Below are positions 6,501 to 64,000 of a DNA stretch of 64,000 nt, piece after piece. Each line of letters begins with the position of its first letter. The stretch's first letter is position 1. The DNA is taken from assembly GCA_025024175.1 (NCBI GenBank), contig QCXZ01000003.1, positions 15,334,392 to 15,398,391 on the forward strand. The letters run 5' to 3'. Origin of the DNA: Rhyzopertha dominica. Its lineage: Eukaryota; Arthropoda; Insecta; Coleoptera; Bostrichidae. The translations under genes were made by a program, and so were the position numbers. The notes beneath the pieces are model-generated. The model ran no database searches. It had not been told where the DNA came from and worked only from the letters and a program-made list of their open reading frames with translations.

Positions 6501-7237
6501 CGCTTGCGTTTTTACGAAATAAGTTTGTTATCCTTACTTTACTATCCCGTTCATTTTAAAGTTTATTAGGTTTCACCAGTACCCGGAATCTAATTTGCAG
6601 GAGCAATATTGTGTTACCTTCGCTATCCACTTGAGTTTCTGAACTTGGTACCCACCTGATAATACTGACGTTATTATTATTTGGATCAATTGAGGCATTG
6701 ATCCGATTTCAAATTAATTACTGTGATTCCCCTGCATTTCAATCTGGCTGCATTTTTTGTAAACGAATTAATCAGTTCGCATCTGAATACTACTATTGAT
6801 TCTGGGAAAAGAAATGGAGTAATAAGAACAGCACAGGGGTTAATCTTCGATTGCAGCTAGCCACGTCTTTGTCACAATTCAGATTTTTTAACTGACGATT
6901 ATTTTATCAAATTACCATAACCGGTTAAGCCATCATCACTTATTCTGTCCACGACAATAAGCTTTTTTGCAACTTATATCGAATATTTAATTACTCACTC
7001 GCACATTCTCATAATATTTTCTGGATATAACTTAATGTTCTATATTACCTAATGTGTGACCTACATGCATGGCGTTTTATTTAGTTCAGCACAGCTACTT
7101 TTAGGAATGGTAAGCCAAAGATTTTTCGTAATTCCTTAGTGAAAAGCTTATATACAGGTTGACCTATCTAAAAATCATCGATCACTAACTCTCTTAAAAT
7201 TAAATTCAAACAAAAAAATTCCTATAAGTAGAAAATT
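6501..7237. other. Unassigned stretch
   Basis: No gene, inverted-repeat pair or known repeat was recognised. Confidence 0.35.
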
Positions 7238-7338
7238 AGATGGCAATGCTATCTGTGACCATTACACTGATACGATAATAAAGCCACTTAGCTGCAGTTG
7301 GTTGACGGCAGACAGCATAGCATAGACAAGCATTTTAT
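7238..7338. repeat. Relic of the hammerhead repeat, inverted junction
   Basis: Bases 7238-7295 match the minus-orientation head of the ribozyme unit (GATGGCAATGC...AAGCCAC..AGCTGC). They are joined directly to a plus-orientation piece, 7291-7338, that starts TGCAGTTGGTTGA and continues through the 3' arm of stem I into the following AGCATAGACA block. In the intact copies TGCAG is the base run immediately after the predicted ribozyme cleavage site. The CTGC at the junction is shared by both halves, so the exact breakpoint is ambiguous by 4 bases. The ribozyme core itself is missing. Confidence 0.7.
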
Positions 7339-7795
7339 TAAATTCCTTACAAAATTTTCAAAGATTTCAGTCCATTATACGTGTATATGGGGGTGTTTTA
7401 ATCTATTTTTAAAATGAAATACATTTTTAATTGGTGATGTTAAGGGAACTTTGTTAGCATGATCTGTGAAACACCGCGTGCCTTTTTGGAGTTGTTTAAC
7501 GTTTTTTTTTAATTTTATCTTTGTGGCGCTATTCATTCATTAAGCACAAAACATTGTACAATTCCAACCCCCCCCCAATTTGCAGATAATAGTATATTAA
7601 AAGAGTAGCTTTATACGGCAAAACTTTGTAGCGATAAAGAGCTTACGGGACATTTTTTTTCTGTTTATAGTAGTTCACCACTTTTCCGTTTTGTTAAGGC
7701 ACAATTCAGTCTATATTACACATTTTTAGATATGTGTTTGCGATTTTCTACTCATTTTTGATATTAAAACTATTTTTGTAGCAAACGAAGCTGGC

Positions 7796-9970: not shown

Positions 9971-10074
9971 CTCTAAATCGGTACTCCCATGGAAGCTCGC
10001 ATTGACAATAATTGTTTTACCTTTATTTGACATTCTATTTTATCTCGCGAAAAAACTAGTTGACGTAATATTTG

Positions 10075-11634
10075 TTGCTACAACAAAACGGACAAGACTA
10101 CATGACAAACAAAGAAAAAGCAAATATTTTGGCTATTAACTATGCAAAAATTCAAAGCAATGACGCCCATTCTAACATCGAACAAAATATAGATAACACG
10201 ATTGCACCCATAATACAAATGACGCACGACATAACTCAGGACGACCTTTCAAAATTATTAACGAACCCTATTGAAATCAAAAAATTCATAAAACACTTAC
10301 CAAACAACAAAGCTCCCGGCCCTGACGAAATACCAAATCTGGCACTAAAAAATCTCTCGAAAAAGACAATTGTACAAATAATGTACATCATTAATGCTAT
10401 TTTAAAATTACAATACTTTCCAAAATACTGGAAAAATGCAATTGTCATTCCCATCTACAAAAAAGACAAAGATAGACACGACCCTCTGAGCTATAGGCCT
10501 ATATCTCTATTAAACACCTTGGCAAAATTAACAGAAAAAATAATACATAAAAGACTGACAGAATATAACGAAGCGAACAATATAATCAAAGACGAACAAT
10601 TTGGATTTAGACGTGGACATAGTACAGAAATGCAACTAATCAGGATCATAACGGACGCTGTTCAAAATTTTAACAAAGAAAAAGTTACAGTTATGACTTT
10701 ACTGGACATCCAAAAAGCATTTGACACTGTATGGATAAACGGACTAATATACAAAATGACAAAACTAAAAGTACCAATACATCTGACTAGATTAATATAT
10801 TCATATCTAACGGAAAGGACAATACAAGTAAAAATAAAAAATGATATTTCAGAAAAACAGCCCACAAAAGCAGGAGTACCGCAAGGCTCAATTCTTGGCC
10901 CAACTCTCTTTAATTACTTCATAAACGACATCCCAACTTTTGAAAGGACCAAAATTGCAATGTACGCTGATGACACGGCTACATATGCGCACTCCTATTA
11001 TGCACAAGCAGCAACGCTACAAAATCAAATTCATGTAAACAAAATTCAAAATTTCTGTGAAGACTGGAAAATCAAACTAAACGGCGACAAGACTGAGACT
11101 ATTACCTTTACAAGAAAATTCACCAACATCATATCTAGACAAAAATTGCATGTTGCAAATAAAACAATAGAACCAACCAAAACAGTGAAATATCTAGGTG
11201 TCTGGCTAGACTCCGCTCTGAAATTTCACACACACGTTCAGAAAGTAATCTCAAAATTCAACAGTTGTCTTAGAACATTATATCCATTGCTAAACAAAAA
11301 CAGCAGATTAAATCAAAACAACAAAAAACTTATCTACACTTCTATCATTAGACCACTAATCACGTACGCTGCTCCCGTGCTGGCAATGACATCAAAAACA
11401 CAAAAAACAAAAATTCAACGACTACAAAACAAATGCTTAAGACTAATATTGACAGCAGACAGATACACGACAATTCAAGAATTACACAGACAAACGGACA
11501 TTCCGACAATAATTCAACACATACACAGACTGACTCAATCATTTTACCAAAATTGTATTCAAAATTCCTGTTTAACAAGAGAAATCCCAAATTTACATGA
11601 AGAAAAGCATAGATTGCCTTATCAGTTTTTGTAG
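10075..11634 (+). CDS. Jockey-like non-LTR retrotransposon reverse transcriptase, 5'-truncated
   Basis: The frame is open for about 520 codons. It begins without an ATG (first in-frame ATG at 10102; a TAA lies just upstream at 10066), so the element is 5'-truncated inside the linker before the RT. RT blocks in order, residues counted from 10072: NKAPGPDEI (about 79-87), IPIYKK then YRPISLLNTLAK (about 125-152), FGFRRGHSTE (about 177-186), TLLDIQKAFDTVW (about 210-222, first catalytic Asp), GVPQGSILGPTLFNYFINDI (about 269-288), MYADDTATYAH (about 298-308, catalytic YADD), then LNxDKTE and KYLGVWLD. The thumb region RPLITYAAPV and a C-terminal KIQRLQNKCLRLIL helix follow. The apurinic endonuclease and ORF1 are absent. 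The order fits the Jockey/I/CR1 group. The uninterrupted frame implies recent insertion. Confidence 0.93.
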   Translation: MLQQNGQDYMTNKEKANILAINYAKIQSNDAHSNIEQNIDNTIAPIIQMTHDITQDDLSKLLTNPIEIKKFIKHLPNNKAPGPDEIPNLALKNLSKKTIVQIMYIINAILKLQYFPKYWKNAIVIPIYKKDKDRHDPLSYRPISLLNTLAKLTEKIIHKRLTEYNEANNIIKDEQFGFRRGHSTEMQLIRIITDAVQNFNKEKVTVMTLLDIQKAFDTVWINGLIYKMTKLKVPIHLTRLIYSYLTERTIQVKIKNDISEKQPTKAGVPQGSILGPTLFNYFINDIPTFERTKIAMYADDTATYAHSYYAQAATLQNQIHVNKIQNFCEDWKIKLNGDKTETITFTRKFTNIISRQKLHVANKTIEPTKTVKYLGVWLDSALKFHTHVQKVISKFNSCLRTLYPLLNKNSRLNQNNKKLIYTSIIRPLITYAAPVLAMTSKTQKTKIQRLQNKCLRLILTADRYTTIQELHRQTDIPTIIQHIHRLTQSFYQNCIQNSCLTREIPNLHEEKHRLPYQFL

Positions 11635-21420: not shown

Positions 21421-21943
21421 TTTCAAGCTATGCGGCAGTATAATGCGATAGCGAGCTTGCACGGTCGAATATTCTTGTCCACGGAACATGTAAAATGCTG
21501 TAAAAAAACTTCAATACCCTCTCTCTTCTTACACGAGATACCCTGTAATTTAAACCAGTATTAAATATACAATACAATCCTGTTCGAAATGCACTGAGCT
21601 TACTTATACCTATTTTGAGGATTTGCGATTTGGTAAGGCTTTTATGAAGCTATCGTATCCACTCGGCTAAATTTTTACACTTCACGTAGGTACTCAGAAA
21701 ATAGATATTTTATTATACAAGACGATAAAATTGTATATTATCTTTGAGAGTGTTTTTGGGTGTCTCGGTTGAACGAAAATGAAAAGTCTACTCCGCGACA
21801 GGAAGAAGAGGTACATAGGCCGTCGGAAACCTACTACAAAAATCCCGCCTCATCTACGAAAAGAATATACGTATTTTCAAAAAGTGGAAAACTGCAAATA
21901 ATGTTGATAATGCTAGAGATAAGCTTTTGAGAAACGCCAAAGA
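21421..21943. other. Unassigned stretch with a lone MITE end
   Basis: A single GATACCCTGTA motif at 21537-21547 looks like the right end of a CAGGGT-type MITE, but no partner was found. Nothing else recognised. Confidence 0.35.
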
Positions 21944-21974
21944 AATAATAATAATTAAAATGCATGTCTATGCT

Positions 21975-22060
21975 GTGCTGTCTACACCTTAACCAACTGC
22001 AGATCTATTTCGCTGTCATTACAGCTCATCAGTGCAGTTTAGGTCTAGTGTAGACAGCAC
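21975..22060 (-). ncRNA. Hammerhead ribozyme copy 1 (damaged stem III)
   Basis: On the minus strand the outer stem I arms GTGCTGTCTACAC and GTGTAGACAGCAC pair perfectly. The CTGATGAG core, the GCTG/CAGC stem II and the GAAA box are intact. Compared with its siblings, four bases are missing from the ATAGATCTAT stem III palindrome, leaving room for little more than the A15.1-U16.1 pair. Cleavage in vitro is doubtful. It is the oldest-looking or most damaged copy of this array. Confidence 0.8.
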
Positions 22061-22322
22061 GGCATAGAACTGGTTTTGCTTATATACCAAAGCAAAGGTA
22101 TGATGAAAGTAAGAATTTAGGATGGCAATGCCATCTGTCAGCATTGCACTAACATGATGACAAAGCCACCTAGCTGCCTTAACGGGAACTACTTCCTAAA
22201 GGAAGTGACCTGTAGCCTGACAAATTGGCATGCAACTGCATACTTCAATTTGACAGCAGGCCCCCACGGCACTTTTTGCTAGCGGGCAAGAACCAACATA
22301 CATTAAAATGCTTGTCTATGCT

Positions 22323-22412
22323 GTGCTGTCTACACCTCAACCAACAGCAGATAGATCTATTTCGCTGTCATTACAGCTCATCAGTGCAGTTTAGGTCTAG
22401 TGTAGACAGCAC
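22323..22412 (-). ncRNA. Hammerhead ribozyme copy 2
   Basis: A 90-nt copy on the minus strand with full core: CTGATGA, stem II GCTG-TAATGA-CAGC, GAAA, stem III ATAGATCTAT and C17. Predicted cleavage lies between 22350 and 22349. The inner stem I has one mismatch (CTGCTGTT against AACTGCA). The outer stem I is 13 perfect pairs. Probably still competent. Confidence 0.87.
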
Positions 22413-22534
22413 TGCATAGAACTGGTTTTGCTTATATACCAAAGCAGCTAGGTGGCTTTGTCACCATGTCAGTTTAATGCTGACGGATGGCATTGCCATC
22501 CCAAATTCTTACTTTCATCATACCATTGCTTTGG

Positions 22535-22542
22535 TATATAAG
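22535..22542 (+). promoter_or_regulatory. TATA-like box upstream of ribozyme copy 3
   Basis: TATATAAG lies 26 bases before the stem I 5' arm of copy 3. The same motif precedes copy 4 (22887-22894) and, inverted, copies 1 and 2 (about 22079-22087 and 22431-22439). Spacing would place a Pol II start near the first base of stem I. Function is inferred from position only. Confidence 0.4.
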
Positions 22543-22560
22543 GAAAACCAGTTCTATGCC

Positions 22561-22650
22561 GTGCTGTCTACAGTAGACCTAAACTGCACTGATGAGCTGT
22601 AATGACAGCGAAATAGATCTATCTGCAGTTGCTTGAGGTGTAGACAGCAC
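22561..22650 (+). ncRNA. Hammerhead ribozyme copy 3 (intact core)
   Basis: A type I hammerhead, with 5' and 3' ends in helix I. The outer stem I pairs 22561-22572 with 22639-22650, and the inner stem I pairs AACUGCA (22582-22588) with UGCAGUU (22624-22630). An asymmetric internal loop lies between them and could dock with loop II. Core: CUGAUGA 22589-22595; stem II GCUG 22596-22599 / CAGC 22606-22609 with loop UAAUGA; G12-A13-A14 at 22610-22612; A15.1 at 22613 pairs with U16.1 at 22622 through a 4-bp stem III closed by AU; C17 at 22623. Predicted cleavage is 22623/22624. Every invariant residue of the family is present. The very short stem III matches metazoan satellite/retrozyme hammerheads, which are thought to work best as dimers. 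Confidence 0.93.
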
Positions 22651-22913
22651 AGCANNGACATGCATTTTAATGTATGTTGGCTCTTGCCCGCTAGCAAAAA
22701 GTGCCGTGAGGGCCTGCTGTCAAATTGAAATATGCAGTTGCATGCCAATTTGCCAGGCTACAGGTCACTTCCTTTAGGAAGTAGTACCCGTTAAGGCAGC
22801 TAGGTGGCTTTGTCATCATGTCAGTGTAATGTTGACAGATGGCATTGCCACCCTAAATTCTTACTTTCATCATACCATTGCTTTGGTATATAAGCAAAAC
22901 CAGTTCTACGCCA

Positions 22914-23002
22914 TGCTGTCTACACTAGACTTAAACTGCACTGATGAGCTGTAATGACAGGGAAATAGATCTATCTGCAGTTGGTTGAGGAGTAGACAGC
23001 AC
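22914..23002 (+). ncRNA. Hammerhead ribozyme copy 4 (stem II closing pair lost)
   Basis: The core is C3 at 22941, CTGATGA, GAAA and ATAGATCTAT, with C17 at 22975 and predicted cleavage 22975/22976, exactly 352 nt after that of copy 3. The base at position 11.1 (22961) is G instead of C, so the G10.1-C11.1 pair next to the core is lost. This is expected to slow or stop cleavage. The outer stem I has one mismatch (GAGTAG for GTGTAG). Confidence 0.88.
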
Positions 23003-23218
23003 AGCATGGACATGCATTTTAATCTATGTTGGTTCTTGCCCGCTAGCAAAATGTGCCGTAGGGGCCTGCTGTCAAATTGAAGTATGCAGTTGCATGACAA
23101 TTTGTCAGGCTACAGGTCACTTCCTTTAGGAAGTAGTACCCGTTAAGGCAGCTAGGTGGCTTTGTCATCATGTCAGTGTAATGCTGACAGATGGCATTGC
23201 CATCCTAAATTCTTACTT

Positions 23219-23246
23219 TAAATAATAATAATAATAATAATAATAA
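23219..23246. repeat. (TAA)n microsatellite
   Basis: About nine tandem AAT/TAA units directly abut the right end of ribozyme array 1. A shorter TAA tract (21947-21956) abuts its left end. Confidence 0.95.
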
Positions 23247-23319
23247 AGTTAATCGTTATTAGTACAGTACTTTGCAGTGTAGGTTTTGTATGTGTCAACA
23301 ATATAAAAATGTACTGAAA

Positions 23320-23400
23320 AGGTATTGCTAGCTTTGACCGGGATTTGAACCGGAGACCTTTCGAATACGAAGCGGCGTGTGTACATCAAAGTTCACTATA
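23320..23400 (-). mobile_element. tRNA-derived SINE fragment
   Basis: On the minus strand the T-arm-like hairpin CCGGTTCAAATCCCGG is followed by TCAAAGCTAGCAATAC. The preceding block resembles the unit at 28566-28852 (GTCTCC/GTCCC before the T-arm, and TACATCA-AGTTCA behind the head). The D-arm is not recognisable, so this is a degraded SINE head, not a tRNA gene. Confidence 0.5.
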
Positions 23401-23530
23401 TACGTTCAGTATTTTCGAGCTTCAAAGCGTAATCCAGTCCTTATATAAAATAATCCTTATATTCCCTTAACATGCGCTAGGCAGTCGCACTACTAGCAGT
23501 CAGCATGTACCCCTTCAACCCAGCGTAGAC

Positions 23531-23582
23531 GGCTGGCCCAGCGGTATATCCGGGAGTGGCAGAAATGCTGACCGTACATTGG

Positions 23583-23620
<38 letters not shown>
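23531..23620 (+). mobile_element. Possible tRNA-like SINE head with (CAAT)n tail
   Basis: TGGCCCAGCGGTA resembles a Pol III A box and GGTTCAATC, 47 bases on, a B box. A (CAAT)n run of about nine units follows (23585-23620). The tRNA cloverleaf does not fold well. Tentative. Confidence 0.4.
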
Positions 23621-24844
23621 TAAAAGGAAAGATGATGGCGACAATCATAACAAACGCAAGATATTATGTGGAAAAAATAACAATAACGAGATGTATTATG
23701 TATTATGCCATATAATATGGCAACTCAAATTAAGATATATTGATGTTCAGGTAAAAGCTAAAATTGCTTTAAAGTCTAAAGGATGAAAACTTTATTAGGG
23801 AGCGTATTTAAACAGAAACAAGCAAGGAAAGATATTAAGCCTACTATTGGCATTTCCATCCAAATACATCCTTACCTACAATTACGTATTACACTTAAAT
23901 TAAGATTCTCCGGATGTAAGTAAATGATTTACAGCGCACGCACCTGTCGATGTTTAATACCGATTTAGTTACCTAACTATATGCTCAATTTACTTACAAT
24001 ATGCATTTTTAGAATCAGAAATTACTCTAAAATTTACGGCAACTAAGAAGTTACTTTTTTAACATTTCACTTCTTACATGATCGCTTATATATAAAGCGA
24101 GGTTGACGCAGTAACCATGGTGTGTTTTTTCTCCGCAATCAAATCAAAATCTTGACAGTTGCGAGTAAATAAATACACATTTACGAAATACAAGTGAATG
24201 ATAGTGAGAATTGTCAACATTAGTGAAAGGGTTGCGTGACAATTCCCGTAACAAATCGATTAATTTGGTGTTAATTGTGCATCTATTGAGTGCCGTTTAG
24301 AACGTAGTTGTATTAAAAAGGGAGAGATGAATCTGCAACAGCACCCTCTAGCGATAAGGAGAAATGAAGTGAGATATGTAACGTGTCGGTAACGACTACT
24401 CGTTGTAAAATGACTTTTTCTGACTGTACATAGCCATGAAGTTACACAGAGTTCTGTTTTCGTTTGCTGATGGTTCGCCTGCACATATTTTGTCCCGACA
24501 ATGGCTTAGCATGGATCGGCGTTGTTTGGCCGTTTTGTTTTCTTTGTTTCTTTAAGAAAATTGTGTTTTTCTATTTCTAAACCACTGGATTTTGGCGCAT
24601 CGCAATGGCTTCTCCTATGTACGTCTCAACGAAATACGCTCTACTTCATAATCCAAAACGTCATTAATTACTTATAAATACCCAAACTAACATTAACCAC
24701 ACAAGTGGAATTCAAGTGTCAATGATTTCTATAAATCCAATCATTAGTACCGCTCTAAAGCGATCGTATCCTACGTTTAGATGGTAGGTAATTTCTATAT
24801 GTCAAATAAGATGAAAAATGTGCAATTTCGATATGGAAATTGGA
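23621..24844. other. Unassigned stretch with a TATA-like motif
   Basis: No gene recognised. CGCTTATATATAAAGCG (24084-24100) is a near-palindromic TATA-like motif followed by about 470 bp of ordinary-complexity sequence. It could be a promoter, but no transcript evidence is visible. Confidence 0.3.
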
Positions 24845-25215
24845 TAAGCGCGTAGGAACTTCAAGCCGGCAATAGCGACGGCCAATTGGAAAACTCTTAT
24901 CAACGCCTCGGGGTTACATGATAGTCTACGCCCTTTTTAATCCAATATCCCCAAGACCCGACGACTTTCCCCAGAATTGGGAAGGAAATTAAGCCGCAGA
25001 TTGACGATGGCGCACCCTTGTCTGATTGGTTACCTTTGGACTGATTTGTCATTGGCGCATTTATAAAATCGAATTGACAGGTGCGTAGCGACTTATCACC
25101 GTCCAAAATTAGATTACCGCGGGAGGGTTTGCGAAATGAGAGTTGAGGTCTTTCCCTCAATTTGAGGAATTTCGCTAGCTCATCACTGTGGGCTAATGAG
25201 AAAAATTTCAAGGAA
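24845..25215. promoter_or_regulatory. CpG-richer island, candidate conserved noncoding element
   Basis: The block has clear compositional contrast and is non-repetitive, with AATTAAGC and TGATTTGTCATTGG-like motifs. A 103-codon minus-strand frame (24900-25211) crosses it; its translation has no domain I recognise. It could be an exon, but no good splice sites were found at its ends. Confidence 0.3.
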
Positions 25216-27013
25216 TTGCCAATTTCTTCAATTTTTTTTTAGTTAATCTTGACTCACAGGTATAGTTGTTGAAAGATTTTTATATTCTCCAGTGTCATGG
25301 CTAAAAAATATTTTGTTTTGAATATTATTTCAAATGAATAGTTTTCTCGGTTGTTATTTTCGTCATTGGTACATGCAAAAAATAAACACAATAAATAACA
25401 TTTAGACTTAAAAATGCGCGGTCAACTTCTCTTACCAAGATTAGAGAATGAAAAACATTTTATATGTAACTAAGCTTGTTTTCTGCTGGCGCAGTGGCAC
25501 CAAACAGTTTTACCTATCAGCGTATTGAAACAAACGCAAATTATTGGAGAAGATTTTATGTGTTGGATGAAGAAGGCATATATTTTATATTACATGATAC
25601 TCAGAACAGATTAGGACACATAAATTAAAGAATCCATAATCGATCCTTAAAAAAGTGGTGTATTAAATTGTATAGACATACAGGTACAACCCGCTTCGTT
25701 GGCGGTGATTTAATAAACAAACAAGTCGGCGAAACTCGCGTTCAATGGTGATTTTAAAACCTGAATTTCAAAATCTATAACAAGGAAACATTGGCGATCG
25801 TAAAGAATTTGAAACTTGCACAAAAAAATATGAAATTGTTTTGAAAATTATTGAAAATCTTTGCGAAACAAAAACATATTGAACAGACGTAGTCGTTATA
25901 GTTCTTTTGTTTACTCTTGACTCGTATTAACATTAGGGAGTTACATGGATGCAATATAATCAGAAGCAGGAGACGACAAAGAGAAGTTACAGGTAAATCG
26001 GTACGAAACATGGCGGACCGGAAAGAAACGATTACAGGTCACAAAGCTATTTTGGTAGCTAAAGTAATCGCGAGAAAAGCGACAAAATACGTTCACGCCC
26101 GTAGTATTTAAGGTTTCCATTAACACATTATTGACACCTGCACTTGAAAAATACAAAATTGAAGTAGTCTATATATTGAACTTTCGCAAGGATTTATGGG
26201 CATCTAGATAATTTTCTTGTTAAAGTAAAAAATAGCATATAAAAAGCTGCGTGTGCTTATACAAGAAATCAGAAGCTATATACTTATCTGACACTTATAG
26301 GATTAATTATATAAAGATCACATCAAATTAAAACTCTGGGTAGAAGCAAATTAAGATTACTGTAAGCGATGCTAAATATTTTGTACGTTAGAAAATTTAT
26401 CATAATTTTGGAACTAACACGAGTCGAAGAACTGTTCGAAAGTTACTAAAAGGATAACATTGTAGAAAGTAGATGTGGTTATGTATCAACAGATAGCATT
26501 CTGCCTTATGATACTTAAGCATTTTAATAAATATTCGACCTGTCGTGTGCTACAAAACCTTACTATCAATGAAATGCTTCAAAAATTTGTTAGTAAAGGC
26601 AGAACAATGATATCAAAACTATGTCCATGGGGCTGCTGATGCAAGCAGCAACTTTATACGTCTAATTGCTATGTAAGTAAAAAAAAATGTTAAGTAAACG
26701 GCTATGGAAAAATATACAAGAGAACCTTCCAGTATAATAGGAAATTACCTGTAATCTCGTCAAAACTTCGACTTAAAATATACCTATAATTACTTTTGTT
26801 AAAAACAGTGCCTAATTTTCAAGTACACTCTGTTAGTGTCCTTTTAAAAGTTTCCGTTATTAATGCATCCATGACAAAACCATTCCCATCAAAAATTATA
26901 CTACCACTTTAATTGAGTAATCAATAAATATCAATAATTTAAATTTTTAAACTGTTTAAGGCAACTGACAGCAAAAAGCACGTATTTGTTGTAGTTAGAA
27001 CCTGACCATATAT
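25216..27013. other. Unassigned AT-rich stretch
   Basis: No recognisable gene or repeat pair. Short frames around 25775-26156 on both strands lack domain features. Confidence 0.4.
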
Positions 27014-27233
27014 GTATAAGTAAGAATTTATAATGGCAATGCCATCTGTCAGCATTACACTGACATGATGACAAAGCCACCTAGCTGCCTTAACGGGTAC
27101 TACTTCCTAAAGGAAGTGACCTGTAGCCTGACAAATTGGCATTCAACTGCATACTTCAATTTGACAGCAGGCCCCCACGGTACTTTTTGCTAGCGGGCAA
27201 GAACCGACATACATTAAAATGCATGTCTATGCT

Positions 27234-27323
27234 GTGCTGTCTGCACCTCAACCAACTGCAAATAGATCTACTTCGCTGTCATTACAGCTCATCAGTGCAG
27301 TTTAGGTATAGTGCAGACAGCAC
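27234..27323 (-). ncRNA. Hammerhead ribozyme copy 5 (two active-site changes)
   Basis: The minus strand has CTGATGA, stem II GCTG/CAGC and 13 perfect outer stem I pairs of the CTGCAC/GTGCAG type. The GAAA box reads GAAG, so A15.1 is G, and position 17 is U instead of C. A G-U pair at 15.1-16.1 and a U17 are expected to reduce activity strongly. Confidence 0.82.
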
Positions 27324-27604
27324 GGCATAGAACTGGTTTTGCCTATATACCAAAGCAATGGTATGATGTAAGTAAGAATTTAGATGGCGATGTCATCTGT
27401 CAGCATTACACTGACATGATGACAAAGCCACCTAGCTGCCTTAACGGGTTCTACTTCCTAAAGGAAGTGACCTGTAGCCTGACAAATTGGCAGCTAGGTG
27501 GCTTCGTCATCATGTCAGTGTAATGCTGACACATGGCATTGCCATCTTAATTCTTACTTACATCATACTATTGCTTTGGTATATATGCAAATCAGTTCTA
27601 TGCC

Positions 27605-27694
27605 GTGCTGTCTGCACTAGTCCTAAACTGCACTGATGAGCTGTAATGACAGCGAAATAAATCTATCTGCAGTTGGTTGAGGTGCAGACAGCAC
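27605..27694 (+). ncRNA. Hammerhead ribozyme copy 6
   Basis: A 90-nt plus-strand copy with C3 at 27633, CTGATGA, stem II GCTG-TAATGA-CAGC, GAAA at 27654-27657 and C17 at 27667; predicted cleavage is 27667/27668. Stem III reads ATAAATCTAT, so its fourth pair is lost, but A15.1-U16.1 and two more pairs remain. Outer stem I is GTGCTGTCTGCAC / GTGCAGACAGCAC, perfectly paired. Likely competent. Confidence 0.9.
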
Positions 27695-27814
27695 AGCATA
27701 GACATGCATTTTAGTTCATCATATATGTTGGTCTGAACTTTATGTTTTTGATGATGTAAATTTGTTGCGCTTACCTCCGACGATACCTGAAGTGTGCCAT
27801 GCACATAGATTTTT

Positions 27815-28565: not shown

Positions 28566-28852
28566 AGTGTTGCCAGCCTTGACCGAGATTTGAACTCGGG
28601 ACCTTTTGAACACTAGTCAAACGCTCTATCACTGAGGTATCAGGGCCCTATTCAGAATCGAGGCCAAGGTGGCATATATACATCATAGTTCATTATGTAA
28701 CGCTGCTGAACGCCATCCGGCACATTTGCAGCTGAATTTATGCCATCTAGACCTCGATTCTGAATAGCACCCTGATAGCTCAGTGACAGAGCGCTTGACT
28801 AGTATTCAAAAGGTCCCGAGTTTAAATCTCGGTCAAGACTGGCAATACTTTT
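28566..28852. mobile_element. Inverted pair of tRNA-derived SINE heads (foldback)
   Basis: Two tRNA-like heads face each other. The minus-strand head (28576-28646) folds as a cloverleaf with a perfect T-arm (CCGAG/CTCGG), a 5-bp anticodon stem with AGT in the anticodon position, and 6 of 7 acceptor pairs. The plus-strand head (28769-28839) has the same arms but only 4 of 7 acceptor pairs. The sequence behind each head is also inverted, including a perfect 16-base arm CTATTCAGAATCGAGG / CCTCGATTCTGAATAG. No CCA or Pol III T-run follows, and the head body is shared with 23320-23400, so I call SINE copies, not tRNA-Thr genes. Confidence 0.7.
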
Positions 28853-36709: not shown

Positions 36710-39499
36710 CGCTTTATCAATGTCGAGGGCGCCAACAGACCAGTGGTTTACGGAATATGAAAGGCTTATTCCGATGCGGACCGTTTACAACGTTTTCGTA
36801 CGGTTGGCCTCTGGTGCTGACCCTCGATGCATTGAGTAACCGAGTAACTGACTGGAGTGATGCAGAGAAGGAGCATAATGAATCCTGAAACGACAAACCG
36901 TTGTCTTCATCCAGATCGCTTTGGTAAGCGACAAGGTCTTTAATTTTGGTATTTATCGGAGGCAACACGACCGCCGGTGTATTATATCCACGAAACAGCG
37001 AAAGTACACATTTTACCCTACCTCCTTAATCCAGAACAAGAGAATGCACAACCTAACGTGGCCAAACTGAATTTGGGCTATTTTGAACAAAGCCACTTCT
37101 ATTTCTTACTTTATCAATAGAAATACTTGGGACATTATTGCAAAAAACACTTCAGGGCCACACTCCTTTTGCTAGGAAGTTGTCATCGAATTAAGTCCTC
37201 GATCAGTACACACGGCATCAAGCTATCAGTTACCTTTTTTGCCATTCTATGATATCCCTATTAAATTTATTTCGCAACAATTCATCAGTTGCTGATTTGC
37301 TTTCCCAAAGCGCATTTAGATTTAGCCGTGCAAATTGCCGCAGTTACAAACGAATAAGAAGACTCGCCATAAATTTAATCTAGTTTCGTTTCTATTTGTT
37401 TCGCATTTAAACGTTTCAAAAACAAAGAGTTTAATCACTACAAGAAGTCTATTGATATTCATAGATTGAACAAATAAGTAAATTGTTTTGCTTAGCGGAA
37501 ACCAACGGCGCATGTTATTCAACAATTTCTTTTAAAATCTCAGGGGTATTTAAATTCACTTTAAAAAAGTGACAAATGCCCGTATCCTATGCCATCTTTT
37601 AGTTTGTCCTAAAACCATCCTAATCTAGCATGGTTCTAGTTAAATGCAGCTAGACAAATGCTTCATAGTATGTATGATTTATAAAATACTCATAATTTAT
37701 GTCAGTATTATATAATTTGTATTTAACGATACAGTAATTCAGAAGGCGCCCTCCTCCTTGGCTGAGGTTCTACCATCTCGCTTACTACATATCACATCAA
37801 CAGACTCCGGAAATACATCTATTATAAAACCGTTCCCGCTCCGAAATGAAGTCGAAAGAGCTAAAATTAGCTCATTCATTTATATCACCCTACGCTGCAG
37901 AAAAGCAAGGCATGATGCAAATTTTAACTTCGTCATAATACTCTAAGCTTTACCGTAAGATAGGGAAGATAAATCACTTTAAGAATCTATATTTATGAAG
38001 GTTGTATAAAAGTGTACTAGGTTATATATGCCATCAAAACGAGATTCTTGATAAACAGCACCGTGGATATAAACCATTTATGACACTAGTCTCCTTTTAG
38101 GGGGATGTTCTAGCAAAGTTCATTGACGTTCTACAGAAATGCTCTCTTCCTGTGGTTACTACCATTACACCAACTCGATAGGTGGAATTACGTCCAATGA
38201 AAAACAACCGATAATAGCCTTTTCATGAACACGAATTGTCTAACTAAATTGCAGCCCTGAATCAACTTGTGGACAATTCTGCTAATGAGAGCCAATAGTT
38301 CATCTATATGCTTGTTTATTCACTGAAATACAAACATGCCTTTCGTTCTGAAGCATAATTTACCTAAGTGCACTAAATGAAATAAATTTGTACATCGGAA
38401 GGTACGGATCGAAACTTGATTACTTAATACTGAATTCACAGTAGCAAACACTATAAACCGGCGATAGCAAACATAATATTTCATTAAGGTACTGTTGATT
38501 GCAGTAGCTTGTGTTATAGTTTTAAAATGCGTCCTTGAACTTTATTATAGTAGAGTAATTAAAGAAATTAGAAATGTGCTCCGTCACGCTACAATATATG
38601 CTATGTTACGTTTATACTTATAGATGTAACTACTTCTTTAGGGTTGCCCTTAGATCTTTATACGGTACGCGTCCAAATGTCTCTCCCCCAGCTAAATTTT
38701 TGAACGCGTTAGCTTAGTAGGTTAGGATAAAATCTGCGTACCTATCACCATTCAGCAGCTGAAATTATGTACCTTATTTGAAAGCCACTTTCATTGTCCG
38801 CATGTTCTCGTTTAGAAAACTGAAATTCATTGTAAAGTTATAAGGGTGTAATCTTAAAACCTGACAAGTCACATTATTTTTTTATTATTTTCAATTAGTC
38901 AGTAATAGAATCGACAATATTAGTTATACATGTCAATTATCTCGACTGATGTATTGTGTTTTGATTTTATTTTCTTATTACTCATATCATTACTACATTC
39001 CATACTCATGTCGACAAAACTATAATAAAGCGGAAGAGATCTCCAGTGAGAAACATTAGGAGCATCCTATCTGTTGAAAATACCTAAAAGAGTTGATAAT
39101 GTGCACAACAACTATTTGGTAAAAATAAACAAGTAGACATTACTGTGAAATCGGTAATATATCGTACCCAGTCTACATATCAGACTGTTATGTTTAATGA
39201 CCTAACCCCACAGTCAGTACAATGCCATTGTCTACCATAAAAATTAAAATGGTTCGATATCACCGGTTTCAACATGTTGCAGAATGTCATCAAGCAATGC
39301 AACAAAAACTCTCCACCCTATATATGCAAACCACGTAAACTATGTAGACCCATTCCACAAGGAAGAAAATATAATGTTTAATACCTACTAATACAAAAAA
39401 ACTTATTTTTAGTCAATCAATATTAAATTTTGATCATCAGAACCGTGGAATCTAAATGGAATTCTAAACGTAATTGTGTCGGTGTTTCTGTAATCGAAT
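36710..39499. other. Unassigned stretch
   Basis: No repeat pairs or domains recognised. Small frames (36717-36968 minus, 37322-37525 minus, 37758-37946 plus) have no recognisable domain. Confidence 0.35.
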
Positions 39500-61018: not shown

Positions 61019-62645
61019 CTAGTCCATGCACTTAGGGGTGGCGTCTGGGCTTTCAGACACGTAACTCCTCTCCCCTTGGTCTTGAGCGTCCGCGCTCAAT
61101 TTTGGATAAAGTTGAACAAATTCTTTTGCTGAAATATTAACAACATTTCGCTTTTTACATAAATTTTTATAAACATTGTTCCTGAAATAACAAAGCACTA
61201 TGATGCAAATTAAAATTACAACAAAGATTATAGCCGTAGCAGAATAGTGAGTATAATGTACAAGTGGATTAAAAATTATTGACTTGGATTTTATAAATTT
61301 GGCTTCTTCTTGGAGCTTCTGAAGGTCCTGGAGATGTTCTTCTTTTAGGAGAACTTCGTACCGATGAGTCAGTGTGATGTCTTCTACTTCTGGCAAGATT
61401 ATGGTTCTGTTGAATCCTGGCTTTCTGAATATTGTATTTTCTATAATTATGCTGCATGATGAGGATATGAGCACATTGTATTGCACTGTCAGTTTTTGCA
61501 CTTGGTATTCGCAGTTTTCTATGAGTTCTAATGGTTGTTTTGTACTAACCATTAGGGCTGTGTTTTCCATTTGTTGAATTATTCGATAGTCGTTAGTAGT
61601 TTCAGCTGCCTGGCATGTATTTAAATTTTCCAATGAGCATTTTTCATTCTTCAGCGTGTGATGGCATAGAGACTAATTGTGGAGGTTTCTGCAGTCGTTG
61701 GACCATAATTCGGACTGATTGGATTGTAGGAAATATTTGGCAGGTAATAGTATAATTTTGTTTTTGGTATTTGGGATCGGATACATTCTGGAGTAAATGA
61801 ACGATGTGGGTTTTAGGATCGGTATCTTCAGTACCATTATTACTGATTTATTTGTTATCATCAATAATATTTTTGAGTGGTCCAATACTTCAAACAAGTG
61901 TGTATTATTTGTGTATAAGATCTGATTTTCATTGTATTCCCTCATTAAGTGTTGATTAATATCTGCAAGGTCTGATCTGGTAAATAGTTCTAAATTCGGT
62001 GTCTCTAGTTTTGCTAAATTAATTGTGCGTTCTATACAATTAATGAAATCGCGGACTCTTATTGCATTAAAAATTTCATGATTGATTACTTGAAGGGTTT
62101 CGAATTTTGACTGAATTAAATTGATTGCTTTGGCAGTCTCATCCATATTGTGATTTAATTTTGAAATGTCTTCATTGTATCGCTGAGTAACGTGAGCTGC
62201 AAATGATGTCAATTCATTTAGTCTACTTATTTCCTGCTTTTGTGTCTTGGACAGTATTTCTAGGTTCTGATTAATATTTGCCAGGTCATCATTATCTAAA
62301 TTTCCAGTTATGAATTTTATAGTTTTTCCTAAGACGTTTACTAAGCCTCTTTTAACTCTAAAATGTGTTAACTTTTCCAGGATATTTTCTGAGCTTTCGA
62401 TTTCTCTTTTTAATGTTTGATATTGATTTCGTAAAAGAGTGTCATTTCTTGTCTTGTGTTCTATTATTACCATGTTTTGTGCTAATTTCCGAACAGCGCA
62501 TTCAAGTTGGGTTAAATTTATGGAGAAATAAAATTTGTGAAAGTGATCGAAAATTTTTGTTTCGCCTATAACTTCTTTAAAATATCCATTTGTGTTAATT
62601 GGTTTGACGTGAAGTTGACGGGATGGCGTCGTCCACACGATTAGC
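61019..62645 (-). pseudogene. env: Endogenous errantivirus env, one in-frame stop
   Basis: A membrane fusion glycoprotein of the gypsy/baculovirus-F type. The frame runs from 62638, with no ATG at its start, to 61673. It is cut there by one TAG (61673-61675) and resumes in the same frame to the stop at 61019, about 540 codons in all. A splice acceptor TTCGTTACAG ends at 62646, so translation probably begins in an upstream leader exon, as in gypsy env mRNA. A furin-type RVKR site (residues 94-97 of the first part) is followed at once by a Gly/Leu-rich fusion-peptide-like start and a long helical region with NIN/LEIL repeats. The second part has a transmembrane segment (its residues about 131-150) and a basic cytoplasmic tail. 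The single stop means this copy is not a functional gene as it stands. Confidence 0.88.
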
Positions 62646-64000
62646 CTGTAACGAAGGGACTTTTCTTAATCTTTTTATTTTACGTACATGCGAGTTAGTG
62701 ATTTTGTTTTTGGCCGATTTACCTATAATTTTCGTTTTCTTTCTATTAGTTACGTTAATTTTCTCGTAAAGGGGATCAGTTTTTCCTGGTTTATTCTTTT
62801 TAACAAAAACTGAAGTATCTGTGTTAATTTCGGGTTCCGGTTCTCTATTTGCATTTCTTTGTGCTAAGACTTTTTGTTCTTTCTGGAAAGTTTTATCATA
62901 AACTTCTTTGAGAAATGGTATTAGTTCCTGTTTACGTCTATTGTTATATTCTTCATAAATAGTTAAATTTACATCGAAATCATTTTCATGTTCATATGGG
63001 CCATACAGCAGTGAAAACGGAGTAAAGCCAGTGGCTGAATGAATTGATTGATTGTAGATTAAGATTGCCGTAATCATTTGATTTTGGGGAGTTTCCTTAG
63101 GGTTTTTAAGTCGTAAAATACGTAATTTTTCGACTAAGGTAGAATGAAGTCTTTCTATGGGACTATTTGAATTCGGGTTGTTTACGGTGGTAAAGTGTAA
63201 TTCTATTTTGTGCATATTGCAATATTCTTTGAGTGTTCTATTGAAGAATTCACGGCCTTCATCGCAGACGATTCGTTTTGGGTAATTATGGTGACTAAAG
63301 TAATGCCTTAACTTATTTAAGATAGTTATGCCTGTGCCATCTTTTACGTAATAAGCTTGGGCGTATTTTGAGAAAGAGTCAATTATTGTTAGGAATTTAC
63401 AGTTTTGGAAAGTAAACGTATCTAAGTGAATAGTGTCAAATGGTTTCTTTGCCAACAATGGACCTCCCAGCTTAACATTATAGGGATTTCTCTCATATTT
63501 GGCTTGTAAGCAAAGGTCGCAAGTGTTAATTTCGTGAACTATCATATCTTTCATATTAGGCCAAAAGTATTCTGAACGTAGTTTTGAATAAGTTTCATTG
63601 ATTCCAGTATGTGTTTCACTATGATAGCTAGTTATTATGTCCTTCTGTTCCTCCTCTTTTAGAATATCTTTATGATACTTAGTGCTAATAAAGATTTTTA
63701 CATTATTATTGAGAAATGTTTTGCTGAAATCTTGGACAGCTTTAATTAATTCTTGTTCTTTTGAGAATATTGCATATGTTATGTTTGGTCTAAATATTTC
63801 TTTGAACATTTGTTGTATATCACCTTGTAAATTTGTGTTTCTGATAAGTATTGTATAATGGTTTTTCTTAAAAGGTTGCTTAAAACGTATTTCATAGTAT
63901 TTACCAAACATCAAAATTATTCTATTCGAAAAGTTATTAACAGGTTGATCCGTAATTGGAATTATTTTTCCGTCATCTTCATTATGGACAGAGTGTACAG
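62595..64000 (-). CDS. pol: Endogenous errantivirus pol, RNase H/integrase end (partial)
   Basis: The frame is open from the right edge of the window to the stop at 62595, so the N-terminal part (protease, RT, most of RNase H) lies outside. Counting from 63914: the zinc-binding HHCC with H98, H102, C132 and C135; the catalytic core D165 (HLDTF), D218 (VCDEGREF) and E254 (PIERLHS), with exactly 35 residues between the last two, the DD35E signature; then NQSIHSATGFTPFSLLYG, typical of Ty3/gypsy integrases. The C-terminus is strongly basic. It inserts the DNA copy of the element into the host chromosome. The 3' end overlaps the env frame by about 44 bp in a different frame. All catalytic residues are present and there is no stop, so this part looks young. 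Confidence 0.95.
   Translation of the reverse strand, partial: VHSVHNEDDGKIIPITDQPVNNFSNRIILMFGKYYEIRFKQPFKKNHYTILIRNTNLQGDIQQMFKEIFRPNITYAIFSKEQELIKAVQDFSKTFLNNNVKIFISTKYHKDILKEEEQKDIITSYHSETHTGINETYSKLRSEYFWPNMKDMIVHEINTCDLCLQAKYERNPYNVKLGGPLLAKKPFDTIHLDTFTFQNCKFLTIIDSFSKYAQAYYVKDGTGITILNKLRHYFSHHNYPKRIVCDEGREFFNRTLKEYCNMHKIELHFTTVNNPNSNSPIERLHSTLVEKLRILRLKNPKETPQNQMITAILIYNQSIHSATGFTPFSLLYGPYEHENDFDVNLTIYEEYNNRRKQELIPFLKEVYDKTFQKEQKVLAQRNANREPEPEINTDTSVFVKKNKPGKTDPLYEKINVTNRKKTKIIGKSAKNKITNSHVRKIKRLRKVPSLQANRVDDAIPSTSRQTN

Follow-up and report, generated by a model that had tools for sequence, protein, structure and literature searches.

Probable head-to-head inverted insertions of a 352-nucleotide unit with hammerhead motifs in Rhyzopertha dominica

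Introduction

Animal retrozymes are expressed as circular RNAs of about 170–400 nt, with insects among their named hosts, and Penelope-like elements are regarded on circumstantial grounds as strong candidates for mobilizing them (PMC7229834). Penelope inserts in rotifers lie head-to-head in inverted orientation, several with duplications of 8, 9 or 10 bp and one joined to its target through microhomology (PMC3846280). The Anolis enzyme, when purified, cleaves the two strands of the DNA and extends each of them, starting at two internal RNA sites (PMC11167929). Here, we describe a 352-nt repeat with hammerhead motifs in a 64 000-nucleotide stretch of the Rhyzopertha dominica genome (GenBank assembly GCA_025024175.1, contig QCXZ01000003.1, positions 15,334,392 to 15,398,391; hereafter the window). 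The kind of repeat is already known; the interesting part is the footprint of its insertions. We consider it probable that the repeat represents a family of non-autonomous animal retrozymes inserted by Penelope-type twin priming on ribozyme RNA. The footprint bears both on how retrozymes return into the genome and on whether a circle can serve as the template.

Results and discussion

The 352-nt unit and its hammerhead motifs

The unit is 352 nt long (position 1 set at 22441) and two monomers have GC contents of 0.438 and 0.443. It occurs in three elements, E1, E2 and E3 (Table 1), none of which is overlapped by an open reading frame (ORF) of at least 100 residues; the longest ORF listed in E1 has 64. 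A tandem non-coding unit within about 150–450 bp, a GC content below 50% and a type I hammerhead in each unit are features of a metazoan non-LTR retrozyme, and the 352-nt unit shows all of them. A preliminary description of the window, made from the sequence alone, had recognized six type I hammerheads in a tandem repeat of about 350 bp; this assignment holds, 352-nt monomers are possible in principle, and both fit the published animal retrozymes.

All six copies are present where they had been placed: a search for the 25-nt hammerhead core (unit 149–173), allowing up to three mismatches, gave six matches in the window against 0.00 expected from 100 shuffles, four of them without mismatch. The copies have the core and stems of the type I class (CUGANGA...GAA(A), H17 before stem I and an open-ended stem I), and the predicted cut follows unit 183 (183/184), which in copy 3 is the 22623/22624 position given in the preliminary description. 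Stem I is long, with seven pairs beside the core and 20 further pairs beyond an internal loop. A full type I descriptor, comprising stems I, II and III, the core and the cleavage nucleotide, matched three of the six copies (at 22589+, 27633+ and 27295−) and none of 300 dinucleotide shuffles. Each miss has one cause: a stem III deletion in copy 1, a stem I mismatch in copy 2 and a broken stem II closing pair in copy 4. Copy 5 passes only because a G–U pair is allowed. Two loose core matches elsewhere, at 37270 and 45288, failed the descriptor and were rejected.

The CUGAUGA...GAAA signature, previously attributed to all six copies, is retained in copies 1, 2, 3, 4 and 6, but copy 5 reads GAAG and has U as its cleavage nucleotide. 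The core is intact in copies 2, 3 and 6, as had been claimed, although copy 2 carries its stem I mismatch; copies 3 and 6 are the cleanest. Copies 3 and 4 are spaced by exactly 352 nt, in agreement with the cutting distance proposed for them. Judging from its sequence, however, copy 4 probably cleaves weakly or not at all, and with stem II of this copy broken, exact 352-nt excision from the pair is doubtful at E1. Across the copies, 97.1% of 207 stem cells are paired. The palindromic character of the outer stem is evident from model R1, which in each of the six copies scores on the opposite strand too (31–53 bits).

The same motifs could belong to solo or tandem pseudo-long terminal repeats (pseudo-LTRs) of an autonomous Penelope-like element, the unit being its terminal repeat and its ORF being absent here. 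Such pseudo-LTRs carry type I hammerheads and form matching head-to-head inserts (PMC3846280, PMC11167929, PMC7761336), and solo pseudo-LTR inserts with duplications have been described (PMC3846280). Here, however, one unit succeeds another with a spacing of exactly 352 nt that leaves no room for coding sequence, and E1–E3 hold no ORF with the telomerase-like reverse transcriptase and GIY-YIG endonuclease of a Penelope-like element. Moreover, copies 3 and 6 have a stem III of 3 bp, whereas Penelope hammerheads are described as minimal and usually without stem III (PMC7761336). We regard this origin as unlikely, although it is the most serious competitor of the retrozyme reading.

Architecture of the elements

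The elements were mapped by BLAST of the doubled unit against the 64-kb window, by a listing of repeats and, for E3, by nhmmer. In all three, antisense copies are followed by a pivot and then by sense copies, such that the 5' ends of the two arms meet centrally. Tandem copies are present, but a description as two arrays is incomplete, and the elements are better read as discrete head-to-head inverted insertions with common ends and flanking direct repeats; the preliminary description was silent on the minus strand of copies 1, 2 and 5, on the inverted architecture and on E3 at 7.2 kb. The inverted arms of 446 nt (22001–22446 with 22527–22972) are 95% complementary. E3 is found by BLAST (E = 3e-9 and 1e-7), nhmmer (E = 2e-6 and 9e-5) and model R1 (E = 0.03), and its arms, when forced into global alignment with the unit, are 81 and 74% identical to it.

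The three elements have their outer ends in common, one at unit ∼230 and the opposite one at ∼75, the latter being aligned in E3 to unit 60–67 and extended from there by eye; the inner pivots and the numbers of laps differ (0.1–2.2 laps per arm, with three of the six arms longer than one lap). Neither outer end repeats the other in inverted form (TTAAAATGC... versus, reading inward, AAGTAAGAA...). A strong 9-bp hairpin lies at one ∼230 outer-end site (z = −5.5) and is weak in the two other copies folded.

Each element is flanked by direct repeats that lie 0–7 bases from its ends, in DNA with an AT content of 0.88, 0.68 and 0.82 compared with 0.65 for the window. Among random pairs of 20-bp flanks (20 000 trials), a repeat of 9 bp was reached in 0.08% and one of 8 bp in 0.45%, figures that are post hoc because visual inspection had already revealed the repeats of E2 and E3. 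The repeat of E1 is weak, since it lies inside an AAT microsatellite. The insert pattern of Penelope (head-to-head, with duplications of about 8–10 bp) is thus seen here with repeats of 11, 9 and 8 bp, again post hoc and with E1 in the microsatellite.

Some DNA transposases also produce direct repeats of 8–11 bp, and with the large inverted arms these would suit a foldback or miniature inverted-repeat transposable element-like DNA transposon containing a hammerhead-like palindrome by chance. The outer ends without an inverted relationship, the pivots and lap numbers that change from element to element and the exact core in four of the six copies make this very improbable; a DNA transposon was rejected as terminal inverted repeats are not present and the two outer ends differ in sequence.

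At 214 sites covered by four laps of E1 (N and gaps left out), 21 are variable, all as singletons, with no 2–2 splits. Lap divergence is 2.8–6.6% within E1, 7.1% between the two E2 laps compared and 4.9–9.4% between E1 and E2 laps, and three of 277 comparable positions (75, 130 and 201) separate E1 from E2. This variation fits one template per insertion, short of proof. It also bears on whether recombination within ordinary satellite DNA, or misassembly at the palindromes, could have produced the arrangement. The tandem 352-bp units, the difficulty of assembling inverted repeats and the two unread bases in copy 3 are all compatible with such an origin, yet the differences among E1 laps are private changes, and three separate places share their outer ends while having different flanking direct repeats. 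We therefore give it little credence.

Pivot junctions

The arms overlap at the pivots by GCA in E1 (3 nt), GGCA in E2 (4 nt) and CTGC in E3 (4 nt). Random joins show an overlap of at least 4 nt in 1.9% of cases. Two further matches at the E1 pivot are chance, by comparison with other laps, and the E3 overlap was read from the BLAST mapping and the sequence, an ungapped trace missing the sense arm owing to a 1-nt gap. One breakpoint falls at unit 3–8 in all three elements, which has a frequency of 0.5% under uniform breakpoints within 4 nt, calculated post hoc. The second breakpoint of E3 is at unit 183–187, at the ribozyme cut site; this is also a post hoc observation, and from the sequence it is placed as run-off on cleaved linear RNA would place it.

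A retrozyme might also acquire inverted arms by self-priming or template switching of one cDNA, not from two primed ends. Self-priming is the published reading of head-to-head Penelope inserts in rotifers (PMC3846280), and the recurrent breakpoint at unit 3–8 would suit it. With both outer ends common and only the inner junction varying, two fixed start sites are a direct explanation, and a single-cDNA origin appears to us quite improbable.

Proposed mechanism

In the twin-priming mechanism that we favor for these retrozymes, a transcript of tandem units would cut itself at unit 183/184, and the monomer ends, held together by the long stem I (7 + 20 pairs), would be ligated to form a circle. 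A staggered cut would then be made by a Penelope-like endonuclease/reverse transcriptase (8–11 bp) in AT-rich DNA. Both DNA ends would prime reverse transcription, each at one of the two internal RNA sites (unit ∼75 and ∼230), and each arm would be extended along the RNA, circular or multimeric, by a differing length of up to 2.2 laps before the two cDNA ends were joined through 3–4 nt of microhomology. Arms of more than one lap are most simply explained by a template that is circular, the alternatives being a linear multimer or self-priming, and we infer a circle on this ground. In its most specific form, the proposal is that a ribozyme-made RNA circle underwent rolling reverse transcription from two primed ends, that the cDNA ends met through microhomology at a preferred point, and that each insertion is the trace of such an event; this we advance tentatively and consider less likely than not. 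If true, it ties animal retrozymes to Penelope-type machinery. Common ends, duplications, multi-lap inverted arms and microhomology joins together form a footprint open to counting wherever a genome carries retrozymes. Read-through transcription of E1 could, in addition, yield a hairpin of ∼446 bp, giving long double-stranded RNA and possibly a source of small RNAs.

Several results count against the favored retrozyme mechanism, beginning with the ribozyme itself. The preliminary description had counted the lack of a covariance-model hit above threshold as a refutation, and in the window scan no hammerhead was indeed found at the Rfam gathering score. RF02275 (Hammerhead_HH9) is the best Rfam model for all six copies and matches them below its cut-off (18.6–27.5 bits versus 52). 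The whole-window E-values are 0.011, 0.019, 0.031, 0.19, 0.66 and 8.6; copies 1, 3 and 6 score 26–27.5 bits, and copies 2, 4 and 5 (0.19, 8.6 and 0.66, respectively) are not significant alone. As a yardstick, we used sequences that share this stem II and come from viral contigs and contigs of metagenome-assembled genomes (MAGs), all five of which (L001–L005) fall below the gathering score. Stems I and III are visible by eye in L001 and L003 (identical sequence) and in L002 and are not clear in L004 and L005. In E-value mode, the three of the five that were tested (L001, L002 and L005) score 21–23 bits. We judge the missed gathering score not decisive, because L001 and L002 reach no more than this with visible stems; equally, scores near 22 bits discriminate poorly either way, because L005 also attains 22 bits. 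The Rfam score is weak evidence here, weaker than the descriptor test. In all five copies evaluated (copy 1 being left out owing to its deletion), the hammerhead fold is 0.7–8.1 kcal mol−1 less favorable than the minimum-energy fold. It is also not the best fold in either of two natural monomers folded as circles, whose stability exceeds the average of 60 shuffles for each monomer (z = −4.4 and −7.5). A single double change, A–U to G–C, distinguishes E1 from E2 in outer stem I (unit 130/201); this covariation is suggestive at most, because it is one event and its score is reached by 31 of 500 shuffles.

The insertion footprint has difficulties too. It is drawn from three elements, the ∼75 end of E3 is aligned just to unit 60–67, the right end of E2 stands seven bases from its repeat, and laps within one element differ about as much as laps of different elements. 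No Penelope-like reverse transcriptase was identified among the five of 21 listed ORFs that were scanned. The authors of the rotifer study prefer an explanation in which an antisense template primes itself, and they describe some inserts without duplications (PMC3846280). The Anolis enzyme showed no strand difference in start site (PMC11167929), whereas the two ends here always differ; the start sites here are ∼155 nt apart, compared with 30–40 nt for the Penelope 'tail', and hammerhead mutants had no effect on insertion of the Anolis element in vitro (PMC11167929).

Table 1. Elements, hammerhead copies and other features. Locations refer to the window except for the last three rows, which refer to viral contigs.
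Feature	Location	Strand	Description
E1	21954..23219		Pivot ∼22444
E1 arm A		−	Units 231→1→352→87
E1 arm B		+	Units 4→352→352→75 (BLAST of doubled unit; repeats D1–D6, I1)
E1 left direct repeat	21943..21953	+	AAATAATAATA, 11 bp, within AAT microsatellite
E1 right direct repeat	23220..23230	+	11 bp
E2	27018..27713		Architecture of E1 in opposite orientation; pivot ∼27490
E2 arm B		−	Units 303→352→1→352→74
E2 arm A		+	Units 4→229
E2 left direct repeat	27007..27015	+	CATATATGT, 9 bp
E2 right direct repeat	27720..27728	+	9 bp
E3	7229..7337		Old decayed remnant
E3 arm A		+	Units ∼183→229
E3 arm B		−	Unit 4 to 60 (BLAST) or 67 (nhmmer), by eye to ∼75
E3 left direct repeat	7216..7223	+	AAATTCCT, 8 bp
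E3 right direct repeat	7340..7347	+	8 bp
Hammerhead copy 1	21961..22073	−	Core 22008–22032; long outer stem I; 4-nt deletion in stem III; predicted cut 22002/22001
Hammerhead copy 2	22311..22425	−	Intact core, one stem I mismatch; predicted cut 22350/22349
Hammerhead copy 3	22548..22662	+	Core, stems II and III and inner stem I intact; loss of one outer stem I pair; N at 22655–22656; predicted cut 22623/22624
Hammerhead copy 4	22900..23014	+	Stem II closing pair and three outer stem I pairs broken; cut would be 22975/22976
Hammerhead copy 5	27222..27336	−	GAAG for GAAA; U as cleavage nucleotide; cut would be 27261/27260
Hammerhead copy 6	27592..27706	+	Core and every listed stem pair intact; predicted cut 27667/27668
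Outer-end hairpin	27199..27227	−	9 bp, at ∼230 outer-end site
Reverse transcriptase ORF	10069..11634	+	RVT_1
tRNA-family match	28575..28646	−	Called by ARAGORN (Thr, AGT)
tRNA-family match	28769..28840	+
Two consecutive ORFs	61022..62665	−	Larger ORF 61676..62665
Viral hammerhead-like sequence	L001, 10196..10220	−	Same stem II, other flanks
Viral hammerhead-like sequence	L003, 7181..7205	−	Same stem II, other flanks
Viral hammerhead-like sequence	L002, 11792..11816	+	Same stem II, other flanks

Other features of the window

The window contains a reverse transcriptase ORF (RVT_1) that is of long interspersed nuclear element (LINE) type by its relatives, the best of which is 81% identical. Among the 120 relatives listed, four bear an animal name, all of insects (a beetle twice, a bee and an ant), and one is an endosymbiont of a weevil, which fits an insect source for the window. 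Two consecutive ORFs lie near the far end of the window. The larger exceeds the curated cut-off for Baculo_F, falls narrowly short of that for the Gypsy envelope family and in this resembles the envelope of an endogenous errantivirus; for the smaller, no Pfam family was matched. About 120 bp separate two oppositely oriented tRNA-family matches, only one of which is called by ARAGORN. Matches to the microRNA families RF00886, RF03747, RF00877 and RF00660 were below their cut-offs and overlap the inverted repeats; they were rejected.

Comparison with known systems

The core pattern search retrieved three viral contigs (Table 1) and two bacterial MAG contigs, all with different flanks, and two unit-specific patterns had no matches in the viral contigs. 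No relative of the 352-nt family was thus found in the viral and bacterial MAG contigs, animal genomes lying outside the search; the result is uninformative on the spread of the family because those collections are without animal genomes.

Compared by description only, the pDo500 satellite of Dolichopoda cave crickets (PMC2837043) is likewise an insect tandem repeat with a hammerhead and compensatory stem changes, but is presented in the cited text as satellite DNA and not as discrete inverted inserts. The metazoan non-LTR retrozymes (PMC7229834) share with the present family the type I hammerhead and a tandem non-coding unit, here of 352 nt with a GC content of 44%. Duplications of more than 4 bp are mentioned in the cited portion of that article, which does not describe a head-to-head layout with common ends and direct repeats of 8–11 bp; such a layout of retrozyme inserts was also not found in our literature search of partial texts, supplementary files being outside it. 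The insertions differ from Penelope-like elements in having no ORF, a 3-bp stem III and one start of each kind per insert. They resemble these elements (PMC3846280, PMC11167929) in combining inverted with direct copies, in their internal starts, in the type I hammerhead and in duplications that, in several Penelope inserts, measure 8–10 bp.

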